From contig CAMYNZ010000097.1 in assembly GCA_947259865.1 (NCBI GenBank), forward strand, positions 1 through 10,788: a DNA stretch of 10,788 nt, given 5' to 3'. This document shows, piece after piece, positions 7,606-10,788 of this stretch. The position numbers were made by a program, and so were the translations under genes. This DNA comes from an uncultured Desulfobacterales bacterium (lineage in GTDB: Bacteria > Desulfobacterota > Desulfobacteria > Desulfobacterales > G020354645). Under the pieces are notes generated by a model, which was given only the letters and a program-made list of their open reading frames with translations, did no database searches and was not told the origin of the DNA. Position 1 is the first letter of the stretch, and the number at the start of each line of letters is the position of its first letter.

Positions 7606-7756
7606 GACAACCTTTTTGAAAAAGTGCAGGTGCTGAATACAATATGATATCTACTTCTGGTTCCCGTGGGAATACATCATACGAGTGTGATTCCAGCCAA
7701 GTCAAAAATTCCAACAAACCATGGTCCGCATCCAGTCGGAAGGTGTCAAAGCGCAC
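7592..7756 (-). CDS. Doubtful small reading frame before livG
   Basis: A 54-codon frame from GTG 7756 to TGA 7594-7592, overlapping the livG start by 14 bases; the frame is open back to 7771. Its translation looks more protein-like than chance, with RFDTFRLDADHGLLEFLTW followed by an acidic, hydrophobic-patterned stretch. I do not recognise it. There is no good ribosome-binding site. A second frame (ATG 7851 to TGA 7764-7762, 29 codons) ends where this one opens, so a one-base shift would join them into about 85 residues. It could be a leader peptide, the remnant of a decayed gene, or chance. Confidence 0.2.
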   Translation of the reverse strand: MRFDTFRLDADHGLLEFLTWLESHSYDVFPREPEVDIILYSAPALFQKGCHGSS

Positions 7757-8000
7757 GAACTTCAAAGATGATCAAACAGGTAAAAGTTTTGCCAGTGATG
7801 GTGAGACCCCCGTCGGTTTTGAAGAACGTTTAGTTTTTTCGAACTCCTCATTTTGCGATTAGAATTTAGTAACTGAAGGTGGCACAGCGTAGGGGGGCTT
7901 GTCAACCCATTTTTACCCGAATGAACGTCTTTTAATGTAATTTATTAGACGATTTACTCAAACAAAAAAATTAATAACGTAACACCTAAAACTTAAAACA
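7606..8000. other. Intergenic region upstream of livG
   Basis: About 395 bp between the mutase terminator and livG. It holds the doubtful small frame (7592-7756), a minus-strand TTGACA at 7905-7900 without a good -10 at the right distance, and an imperfect 26-bp dyad at 7926-7951. A 72-codon plus-strand frame (7644-7862) is Ser-rich with no ribosome-binding site and is not called. The promoter of the importer operon should lie here, but I cannot place it. Confidence 0.4.
7926..7951. promoter_or_regulatory. Imperfect dyad, possible operator upstream of livG
   Basis: CGTCT at 7926-7930 and AGACG at 7947-7951 bound a 26-bp AT-rich dyad in which 9 of 13 half-site positions match. Its size and position are in keeping with a dimeric repressor site controlling the importer operon. 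This rests on symmetry alone. Confidence 0.2.
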
Positions 8001-8030
8001 TGATGAATTCGAATTTTTCCGAATTCATCA
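8001..8030 (-). terminator. Hairpin overlapping the mutase small-subunit stop codon
   Basis: A perfect 11-bp stem (8001-8011 with 8020-8030) and 8-nt loop. On the minus strand it begins exactly with the TGA stop of the small-subunit gene and is followed by a T-rich tract (TGTTTTAAGTTTT). The stem is AT-rich and the T-tract is interrupted, so termination may be weak. It probably ends the mutase operon and separates it from the livG operon. Confidence 0.5.
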
Positions 8031-8429
8031 ATTACCTTCACCCATGGTGTCTTCAATATAACCTACAATTTCTTCCATGCTGGATCCGGGCGGAAAGACC
8101 GCTGCAATTCCCATTGCTTCAAGCAGGGGTATATCTTCCCGGGGGATGGTTCCGCCGGCGATGACGACCTTATTTTCAACCTTTTTTTGTTTGAGGAGGT
8201 CCATAACCTGGCGGACCTGCTGGTAGCGTCCGCCGAGACTCAGACCGATCAGGTCGACGTCTTCCTGAACGGCTGCGGTAACAATCTGTTCGGCCGATAG
8301 CATCCCGCCATAAATAACCTCCATCCCTGCATCTCGCAGGGCCATTGCCACCACAGCAACCCCGGTCCAATGGCCATCCAGGTTTGGTTTTGCCAGCAAT
8401 ATTCGTGGTCGTTGTGTTTGTGGGCCCAT
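8028..8429 (-). CDS. B12-binding small subunit of a two-subunit acyl-CoA mutase
   Basis: A 133-residue stand-alone cobalamin-binding domain, the usual size of small subunits in methylmalonyl-CoA-mutase-family enzymes with split chains. The DxHxxG motif is present as DGHWTG (18-23), with His20 the expected lower cobalt ligand. The GG of the third B12 motif is at 92-93 (AGGTIP). The second motif, normally SxL (e.g. LSILSGAH), reads LSLGGRYQQ here, so it is altered. The ATG at 8429 has AAAGGA about eight bases upstream; an ATG at 8433 is in another frame. It follows the large subunit by 131 bases, and together they should form the active cytoplasmic enzyme. Confidence 0.88.
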   Translation of the reverse strand: MGPQTQRPRILLAKPNLDGHWTGVAVVAMALRDAGMEVIYGGMLSAEQIVTAAVQEDVDLIGLSLGGRYQQVRQVMDLLKQKKVENKVVIAGGTIPREDIPLLEAMGIAAVFPPGSSMEEIVGYIEDTMGEGN

Positions 8430-8560: not shown

Positions 8561-10192
8561 TCAGAACGTCATTTTGGGCGGATCCCAGGTGCCGAATACC
8601 TCGCGAAATACCTGGCCGACCTCTCCGACGGTCACGGACGCCTGGACCGTTTTCATCATGATCGGCATGATGTTTGCCCCGGTTTGACAACCTTTGCGAA
8701 GTTCATCCAGGCAACGGTTGGCTTTATCCGTATCACGCTCGTGTCGGAGCTGATCCAATCTTTCCATGGCAATTTCCCAGGCCCTGGGATTGTGACGAAA
8801 AGTCTCCACGCAGTGGGGTTCTTCATCCATCTGGAAGCAATTCACCCCCACCACCTTCAGCTCCCCGCTGGAAACCTTTCTTTGTTTTTTTACAGTTCCC
8901 TTTACGGCTTCCCGGTGGAAAAAGCCCGATTCAAGGGCCGGTATAAAACCGCCTACCTGATCGATTTTGTTCAGATACTCCCAGGTTCGCTTTTCTATCT
9001 CGTTGGTCAGCCATTCCACGTAATACGACCCGGCCAAAGGGTCGATGACATTGGTGATATTGCTTTCGTATTGCAAGATTTGCTGGGTTCTTACGGACAT
9101 TGTGTGGGCCATCTCAGAGGGGGTGCAGATGGCTTCATCATAGGCGGCCACACCCAGCGATTGCACGCCGGCAAGCCCTGCCGCCAGGGCCTGGTAAGTG
9201 CCCCGCACGATATTGTTGAAGGGTTGTTGATACGTATATCCGGAGCCCTGCACCAGAGCATGAATTCGCATTCTGAGGGATCGCGGGTCTTTGGCGTGGT
9301 ATTTTTCACTCAATAATTTGGACCACATGCGACGGGCCGCCCGCATCTTGGAGATGTCCTCAAAGAAATCACGGCCGGTGGCAAAGCTGACTCCGCCGAT
9401 GGCGTATGCGAATTCATCAATCGTTAAATTCCCTCTATTCAGAATCTCATCGATGTAGGCGATGGCATTGGCCATAGTCATGGCCAACTCGTGATGGGAG
9501 TTGACGTTACACTCGCGGGCGTTGTAACCCGGGATTGAAATCGGTATCCACCGGGGCAGCTTATCCACACAAAATTCAATAAGATCACAATTCAACCGCA
9601 GGCCGGCTGCAGGACCCACTTGATCCTGGTAGAGGTTTGATAGATAAAAAAGGAAGAAATCACCCTCGCCGGTTCCGCTCAATTTTTCCAACGGAATACC
9701 TCTTTTCTGGGCCACGGAGAAATAGCAGGCGTGGGAAAAGGGGCTTAACGGCGGTCCGACGCCGCCCGGATGGCAATAAAGCTTTTCGATGGGGATACCT
9801 TCCAGGGCGATCTCAAACTCTTCGAGGGAAAACATCGGCGGCCCGAACTGACCGACTTCGTCTTTACGACCGAGAACCGCAGGATGATCCACGTCATACA
9901 AATACCAGGTGGACATATCGCTTTCCATGATAAACCCGGTTTCCCCCTGTTTTAGTAAATACAGGATGCGTTCCCTTTCGTCTTCGGCAGTACCATAACC
10001 GCTCAGTTGAAATATTCTCCAAAGTTTGGCCCGGTACATGTCGGGATAGGCGCCCCGGGTAAAGGGCGCTTGCCCGGGGGCTCCCAGATCATTTTCATAA
10101 TCTAAGTCGGCAATATCCTGGGGACCATAAATCTTTTTTAAGGGAATCCCGGAGATAGTGCTGTCATAGTCGGGTTTTTTTAGGATTTCCAT
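8561..10192 (-). CDS. Divergent large subunit of a B12-dependent acyl-CoA mutase (methylmalonyl-CoA mutase family)
   Basis: A 543-residue substrate-binding TIM-barrel subunit without a B12 domain, like the large chains of split mutases (isobutyryl- and 2-hydroxyisobutyryl-CoA mutases). Family marks: FTRGAYPDMY (44-53), GYGTAED (65-71), RAARRMW (284-290), NNIVR (326-330), RTQQIL (368-373), IDPLAGSYYVE (383-393). By my eye alignment to P. shermanii methylmalonyl-CoA mutase, key residues differ: Tyr89 to Leu63, Arg87 to Phe61, Gln197 to Glu176, the His of GYH (His244) to Asn224, and the Arg207 segment has no Arg. It therefore probably acts on another acyl-CoA. The ATG at 10192 has AAAGGAG seven bases upstream. 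The usual annotation 'methylmalonyl-CoA mutase' would be misleading. Confidence 0.87.
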   Translation of the reverse strand: MEILKKPDYDSTISGIPLKKIYGPQDIADLDYENDLGAPGQAPFTRGAYPDMYRAKLWRIFQLSGYGTAEDERERILYLLKQGETGFIMESDMSTWYLYDVDHPAVLGRKDEVGQFGPPMFSLEEFEIALEGIPIEKLYCHPGGVGPPLSPFSHACYFSVAQKRGIPLEKLSGTGEGDFFLFYLSNLYQDQVGPAAGLRLNCDLIEFCVDKLPRWIPISIPGYNARECNVNSHHELAMTMANAIAYIDEILNRGNLTIDEFAYAIGGVSFATGRDFFEDISKMRAARRMWSKLLSEKYHAKDPRSLRMRIHALVQGSGYTYQQPFNNIVRGTYQALAAGLAGVQSLGVAAYDEAICTPSEMAHTMSVRTQQILQYESNITNVIDPLAGSYYVEWLTNEIEKRTWEYLNKIDQVGGFIPALESGFFHREAVKGTVKKQRKVSSGELKVVGVNCFQMDEEPHCVETFRHNPRAWEIAMERLDQLRHERDTDKANRCLDELRKGCQTGANIMPIMMKTVQASVTVGEVGQVFREVFGTWDPPKMTF

Positions 10193-10579: not shown

Positions 10580-10788
10580 ATGAATATGCCCGAAGATACT
10601 CAATGGGAAGATCTGGTTGTATCCCCCGAAGAAGCGCTTGCCAATATCAAACCGGGGATGACCATCTTCCTGGGAAGCGGTGTGGCCGAGCCGCGCACGT
10701 TGATGAAGGCACTGATCGACTCCGGTGCTCCCAATACCAATGATCTGGAATTGATCCAGTTGACGAGTCATTCGGACGTTTTTTCATT
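10580..10788 (+). CDS. Acetyl-CoA hydrolase/CoA-transferase family protein, N-terminal fragment
   Basis: Divergent gene, cut by the window end after 69 codons. The start is MNMPEDTQWEDLVVSPEEAL, then IKPGMTIFLGSGVAEPRTLMKAL (about 24-46), the typical N-terminal glycine-rich strand-turn of the acetyl-CoA hydrolase/4-hydroxybutyrate CoA-transferase family. Such enzymes move CoA between acids through a glutamyl-CoA intermediate; the catalytic Glu would lie beyond the window. An in-frame stop at 10556-10558 rules out upstream starts; ATG 10586 is the only near alternative. An AAGAAGA stretch serves as a weak ribosome-binding site. Some members in related bacteria continue into an acetyltransferase domain, which cannot be judged here. 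Confidence 0.82.
   Translation, partial: MNMPEDTQWEDLVVSPEEALANIKPGMTIFLGSGVAEPRTLMKALIDSGAPNTNDLELIQLTSHSDVFS

Follow-up and report, generated by a model that had tools for sequence, protein, structure and literature searches.

A Clade of the Methylmalonyl-CoA Mutase Superfamily without His244 and Its Subclade with a Rebuilt Barrel Lining, Represented by a Subunit Pair from an Uncultured Desulfobacterales Bacterium

Introduction

To our knowledge, few acyl-CoA mutase reactions have been described, and the characterised enzymes share the same catalytic histidine and thread coenzyme A (CoA) down the barrel of the large subunit. In methylmalonyl-CoA mutase (MCM), small serine and threonine residues line the barrel and let CoA pass along its axis; the strands bearing Thr85, Ser114, Ser162 and Ser164 are presumably those that line this tunnel. 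In 2-hydroxyisobutyryl-CoA mutase (HCM) the substrate-specific pair is formed by Ile90 and Asp117. According to a report on an engineered HCM homolog, every rational change of a first-shell residue inactivated the mutase (PMC11599936). This adds to the interest of a natural clade whose first shell has been exchanged. Such a clade is represented in the 10,788-nucleotide stretch of DNA analysed here (hereafter, the window).

Genomic Organization of the Mutase Locus

The two mutase subunits are encoded on the minus strand of the window, the small-subunit gene starting 131 bases downstream of the large-subunit gene:

8561..10192, minus strand: mutase large (catalytic) subunit, 543 aa, PF01642 match
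8028..8429, minus strand: mutase small subunit, cobalamin-binding, 133 aa, PF02310 (E 9.1e-20) and TIGR00640 matches
8361..8378, minus strand: DGHWTG, the DxHxxG motif; D18, H20 and G23, like K14 just before them, do not vary in 7/7 small subunits
8229..8240, minus strand: SLGG loop, in this one sequence two residues shorter than in six other small subunits
8001..8030, minus strand: 13-pair hairpin plus weak T tract immediately after the small-subunit gene, fold z -3.45

The large subunit matched PF01642 with 489.4 bits (cut-off, 22.1) and TIGR00641 with 457.7 bits (cut-off, 303.8), and the small subunit, which is 37–46% identical to the six others compared, matched TIGR00640 with 110.3 bits (cut-off, 57.45). 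In addition, the 29 rows of alignment A1 all matched TIGR00641 at E 1e-20 or better and all matched the same four families. The large subunit with its DxHxxG partner is thus a member of the MM_CoA_mutase superfamily (PF01642/TIGR00641). We take the His of DxHxxG to be the cobalt ligand and assume that the loop containing SLGG holds the cobalamin tail. None of the NCBIfam equivalogs reached its cut-off with the large subunit; NF006944 (methylmalonyl-CoA mutase) gave 371.9 bits against a cut-off of 876, its 721 positions including a B12 domain and so disfavouring a lone large subunit. A fused isobutyryl-CoA mutase (IcmF) was discarded, as NF045497 gave 155.4 against 1500 bits and PF01642 is the sole domain in the large subunit. 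Among solved structures, HCM (PDB 4r3u), in which large and small subunits are likewise separate, matches best in both sequence and fold, and the AlphaFold model of the large subunit (pLDDT 94.5) lies 1.4 Å from it.

The mutase transcript may end at the hairpin, which is weak by count, the region having 5 terminator-like sites against 4.7 in shuffles. Between the mutase pair and livG lies a gap of about 420 bases (7606–8027) without any ORF of at least 80 aa; it holds promoter-like sites on both strands, at a frequency not clearly above shuffle expectation for the region. Beyond this gap, and on the same strand, livG, a gene for an AMP-forming acyl-CoA ligase, livH, livM, a gene for a periplasmic binding protein and livF follow in this order. 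A divergent gene starts at 10580 on the plus strand (10580–10788) and is cut by the window end; its 69 residues present weakly resemble CoA-transferases (PF01144, 21.3 bits; cut-off, 23). The eight window proteins scanned gave no Pfam match to a MeaB-type chaperone or an adenosyltransferase, and no second mutase large subunit is encoded within the window. The periplasmic binding protein of the transporter was also examined for a clue to the substrate, and none was obtained.

Replacement of the Active-Site Residues

A search with the window protein gave 7774 relatives at E <1e-40 among 7997 candidates scored, and the best 120 of these 7774 were aligned with the window protein (121 rows). The positions that differ from MCM are the following:

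10016..10018, minus strand: Arg59, for MCM Thr85, barrel strand 1; Arg in 121/121 aligned rows
10004..10012, minus strand: Phe61 and Leu63, for Arg87 and Tyr89; Phe in 112/121, Leu in 114/121
9923..9931, minus strand: Ile88 (Ser114 position) and Glu90 (HCM Asp117 position), from the alignment
9770..9778, minus strand: Tyr139 and His141 (Ser162 and Ser164 positions), strand 3; Tyr in 114/121, His in 109/121
9665..9667, minus strand: Glu176 (Gln197 position); Q72, E55 and H9 of 141 subclade rows
9635..9637, minus strand: Asn186 (Arg207 position, carboxylate clamp), from the alignment
9521..9523, minus strand: Asn224 (His244 position); Asn in 117/121 and 257/268

The substitutions listed in the initial annotation, namely Phe61 for Arg87, Leu63 for Tyr89, Glu176 for Gln197 and Asn224 for His244, were borne out by both the alignment and the AlphaFold model, and so was a carboxylate clamp without Arg, the Arg207 position being occupied by Asn186. 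No alignment brought the missing His, Tyr or Arg back in a shifted position. Compared with the catalytic chain of MCM (PDB 1req, 4req), the window protein therefore replaces Tyr89, Arg207, His244, Arg87 and the Ser/Thr residues of the tunnel, and MCM proper was discarded because the window protein has Leu63, Asn186 and Asn224. HCM shares with the window an aliphatic residue at MCM position 89 and an acid at MCM position 116 (Ile90/Asp117 in HCM, Leu63/Glu90 in the window); however, it keeps Thr85, Arg87, the small tunnel residues, Gln197, a Gln at 207 and His244, at all of which the window differs. Benzylmalonyl-CoA mutase IaaGH was considered from the published description of the enzyme.

Two further searches were run with P0101 (best 120 of 7015) and P0161 (best 120 of 7993) as queries, and a pooled set of 268 proteins of more than 480 residues was obtained after two shorter ones were dropped. 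Counts over these 268 rows are those of the top matches of three queries, each itself Asn-type: the His244 position is Asn in 257, another residue in 11 and His in none. As outside mutases, 18 proteins were used (L001–L003, 11 from plasmids [L035–L045], two phage-borne and two solved chains). His244 is present in 16 of them and replaced by Asn in the two phage proteins, while Thr85 is present in all 18. Loss of the His, which had been called unusual, is so with respect to these mutases but is the rule across the clade.

Several positions did not change. Glu353 (MCM Glu370), which presumably holds the adenosyl ribose, is Glu in 268/268 relatives. In the Asn-bearing rows of the subclade to which the window belongs, the residues that we take to be CoA contacts are nearly all kept (Tyr49 in 139/141, Met52 in 137/141, Gln344 in 139/141 and Ser345 in 132/141), and His311 is conserved in the clade rows. 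Arg283, on the contrary, is lost. The Arg207 position is C in 63, T in 36, N in 17, H in 5 and A in 4 of the 141 rows and so has no conserved stand-in, which makes a free carboxylate placed as in MCM unlikely, as judged from the alignment.

Phylogeny and Distribution of the Clade

A tree of 65 rows, obtained by a quick search and with SH-aLRT as its support measure, separated the 18 outside mutases from all 47 clade rows by a starred branch. Within the clade, the window belongs to 27 rows that form a starred set, nested in another of 34, and in this quick tree it is placed apart from HCM, which lies on the other side of the branch parting off the outside mutases. The subclade of the window, characterised by Arg59, comprises 147 of the 268 relatives. 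Of its rows, 141 have Asn at the 244 position; 114 of these have Phe instead of Arg87, 96 have Ile instead of Ser114, 130 have Tyr instead of Ser162 and 122 have His instead of Ser164. In six intermediate rows, positions 59 and 61 are both Arg. Among the listed matches whose residues were checked, the source names on the window's side include Deltaproteobacteria, Candidatus Tectomicrobia, Dehalococcoidia, Binataceae and Leptofilum.

The sister group, SYN (named after its Ser-Tyr-Asn motif), also lacks His244 but keeps the tunnel residues. It has Asn at 244 like the window and lies on the same side of the starred branch that parts the His-type mutases; unlike the window, it has Thr or Ser at 85, Arg87, mostly Ser114, Gln330 and mostly Phe at 89. 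It comprises 109 rows with Thr59 and Asn, seven with Ser59 and Asn and five with Thr59 and another residue at 244. Thr85, Arg87 and Gln330 are present in all of the 109 Thr59/Asn rows and Ser114 in 93, while 75 have Gln197 and 79 have Phe at 89; a His at 236 and/or 287 was found in 106 of the 121. The names in this group (example, P0161) include Ca. Syntrophoarchaeum, Ca. Methanolliviera, Dehalococcoidia and Thermodesulfobacteriota.

Other collections were searched as well. A scan of genome contigs with the window protein yielded one locus, a GYH mutase in an Ignavibacteria MAG; when 395 genomes belonging to the same phylum as this MAG were screened with a profile of the clade, no match exceeded 544 bits, on a scale uncalibrated against true members, and the 30 loci taken from it (L002–L031) all read GYH. 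The plasmid search matched 421 records, the best being 38.9% identical among the 60 listed. Twelve plasmid regions were opened, of which L035–L045 were aligned as outside rows and the twelfth, L060, reads GYH and was left unaligned. Three mutase loci, two of them full-length, were found on viral contigs, and a search of phage records gave two weak matches. Finally, solved structures were screened with a profile for members of the clade, and the 11 sequences retrieved are all named MCM, HCM or IcmF chains.

The clade is broad and apparently undescribed in the literature searched, in which no paper describing it was found, subscription papers being mostly outside the coverage. One hint on the neighbourhood of Asn-type genes may come from Methanoliparia of the Gulf of Mexico, in which an operon contains benzoyl-CoA reductase-like subunits and methylmalonyl-CoA mutases, with a CoA ligase in one genome; its authors warn that the reductase genes may serve other functions (PMC6703427). 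The SYN-type proteins P0237 and P0259 are named Ca. Methanolliviera sp. GoM_asphalt and GoM_oil and may correspond to genes of that operon. In a figure legend on Alkanophaga, mcm is listed beside alkane-pathway genes (PMC10322722). Across these searches, the window locus was the only member of its subclade whose gene neighbourhood was obtained.

Lining of the Barrel

The rebuilt tunnel lining, together with His141 on another strand, is a stronger departure from MCM than the loss of His244, and was missed by the initial annotation. Nine lining positions were compared; they lie on strands of the model, with position 143 just beyond. The summed side-chain volume over these positions was 1101 in the window core (sd 10, n=108), 943 in SYN (sd 24, n=31) and 892 in the His-type mutases (sd 12, n=16). 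As positions 59 and 141 had helped to define the core group, the sums were repeated without both, and the gap shrank (775, 741 and 687, respectively, over seven positions). Over five positions (88, 139, 174, 219 and 345) the values were 653, 484 and 480. The added bulk comes mainly from Arg59, Ile88, Tyr139 and His141, and from these residue volumes we infer that the CoA tunnel may be closed.

As a control of a CoA-free barrel we used MutA, the non-catalytic chain of heterodimeric MCM, since MutA-like chains are assumed not to bind CoA. Rows were taken from 8 genomes, all below the TIGR00642 cut-off, and five of the six reading frames were used (L053 was omitted). The three of these five rows without a gap gave 1025–1117 over nine positions and 440–520 over five. 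MutA-like chains are therefore bulky over nine positions like the clade of the window but not over the five, and the control agrees in the nine-position total only. In addition, a His at 141 is present in 2/5 MutA-like rows, which indicates that His141 need not be catalytic.

Clues to the Substrate

When HCM positions are obtained by subtracting 11 from the construct numbering of 4r3u, Leu63 and Glu90 align with Ile90 and Asp117 of HCM, which is the same kind of pair with different letters. An acid at 90 was found in 136 of the 268 relatives, always together with L, I, V or M at 63. It is absent from all 112 relatives with any other residue at 63, and from 20 aliphatic rows as well. The five outside rows with Ile or Val at the 63 position, of which two are nearly identical, have Asp at 90, and the three with Leu (the two phage proteins and L036) have Leu, not an acid. 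Eleven rows combine Arg59 with no acid at 90, so that Glu90 is not simply the salt-bridge partner of Arg59. Because the tree separates the clade from HCM, the shared pair looks convergent, which on alignment evidence would point to a substrate that is hydroxylated or of a similar kind.

His141 is present in 123 of the 147 Arg59 rows, and the remaining 24 have His176 (13), His269 (6) or neither (5). Among 162 rows left after thinning at 80% identity, 61 have His141, 60 have His176 or His269, none has both and 41 have neither. On the tree these traits need only 5 and 6 changes; of four independent pairs an average of 1.9 were opposite and none were the same (p 0.5), and with so few changes a sign test cannot reach significance. 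A relocation of the pocket His to another strand is thus suggestive only. Taken together, the Leu63/Glu90 pair and a pocket His on another strand suggest a working enzyme.

Discussion

The reading that we favour, at about even odds (roughly 0.5), is that the two subunits form an AdoCbl-dependent carbon-skeleton mutase which would bind a hydroxyl-type substrate through Glu90 and Leu63, with His141 replacing His244 and CoA reseated or absent. The residue roles in MCM and HCM and the CoA contacts are assumptions of this mechanism. Cobalamin would be sandwiched by the barrel and the small subunit, whose His20 would sit on the cobalt. The adenosyl radical would take a hydrogen from the substrate, after which the acyl or an equivalent group would migrate. 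Glu90 beside Leu63 could hold a substrate hydroxyl or similar group, as Asp117 and Ile90 do in HCM, and His141 on strand 3 might polarise the carbonyl instead of His244; alternatively, Asn224 might hold the migrating carbonyl. Arg59, Ile88, Tyr139 and His141 would fill the lower barrel, so that either CoA would be seated unlike in MCM or the substrate would not be a CoA ester. The rebuilt pocket makes a substrate other than the known ones probable. A new substrate or altered chemistry, as the initial annotation had proposed, is accordingly the most likely reading, but the His-less state from which it was argued is typical of a broad clade.

An ordinary acyl-CoA mutase acting on a new acyl group is a serious competitor, to which we give somewhat less than an even chance. 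CoA would then still thread the barrel in a slightly shifted position, with the strand-1 Arg moved from 87 to 85, and the novelty would be confined to the acyl pocket. The six rows with Arg at both 59 and 61 look as if Arg had shifted stepwise, the protein exceeds the cut-offs of TIGR00641 and PF01642, His311 is conserved, and the neighbouring genes are CoA-related (the acyl-CoA ligase and the CoA-transferase-like start). All the characterised relatives that we know of act on CoA thioesters, and the conservation of Tyr49, Met52, Gln344 and Ser345 fits CoA still binding. However, Thr85, Ser114, Ser162 and Ser164 all turn bulky and Arg283 is lost. 

The residue volumes would also allow, as a tentative extension of the favoured mechanism, that the tunnel is closed; the clade would then be the first such branch of the superfamily and an AdoCbl mutase of a compact, probably hydroxylated non-CoA acid, with the carbonyl-binding His on another strand. 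We give this bolder reading about one chance in three.

A non-catalytic MutA-like barrel scaffolding another mutase, for which the loss of Tyr89, Gln197, Arg207 and His244, the similar nine-position volume and the His at 141 in some MutA-like rows could be adduced, is improbable. The B12 subunit gene downstream has the DxHxxG His, the new pocket is highly conserved and the window has no second large subunit; moreover, the invariant Glu at the Glu370 position contrasts with S, E, L, A and A in the MutA-like rows, that is, non-Glu in 4/5. Finally, a misassembly, frameshift or misalignment disguising an ordinary mutase can practically be dismissed, since the large-subunit gene reads as one uninterrupted frame and resembles its neighbours in codon composition, relatives with 95 and 85% identity are listed on other contigs and the AlphaFold model is confident.

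A His-less clade with 268 members examined, half of them with a rebuilt tunnel, would point to an undescribed carbon-skeleton rearrangement, present mostly in lineages that have not been cultured. Such a clade would also show if the chemistry requires CoA threading and His244 or if these are one solution among others, and the His-type mutases, SYN, the intermediate rows and the window's clade would offer a natural series for the rebuilding of the pocket.

Other Mutases Found in the Searches

Two IMG/VR contigs encode MCM-type large subunits with a GYN motif (L032:8483-10513 and L033:9959-11572) in which Arg207 and the small tunnel residues are kept. As judged by eye, other genes of these contigs resemble phage baseplate and tail genes, and the mutase neighbours are acetyltransferase-like and, in L033, also glycosyltransferase-like; in L032 a B12 small subunit follows the mutase. 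A faecal phage record (H62, MT838864, 3797-5284) contains a distant mutase-like stretch, 26.6% identical. In L044 and L045, from Paraburkholderia and Marinobacter plasmids, GAH replaces GYH and changes occur at His328, Gln330 and Asn366, so that the pocket is possibly enlarged, perhaps for an aromatic substrate. The mutase of a Sphingobium plasmid (L036:2902-4569) is long-branched, reads GQH and has Leu at 89, Pro at 117 and Asn at 207; it adjoins its own meaB, and genes for an AMP-binding enzyme and a thiolase lie nearby.
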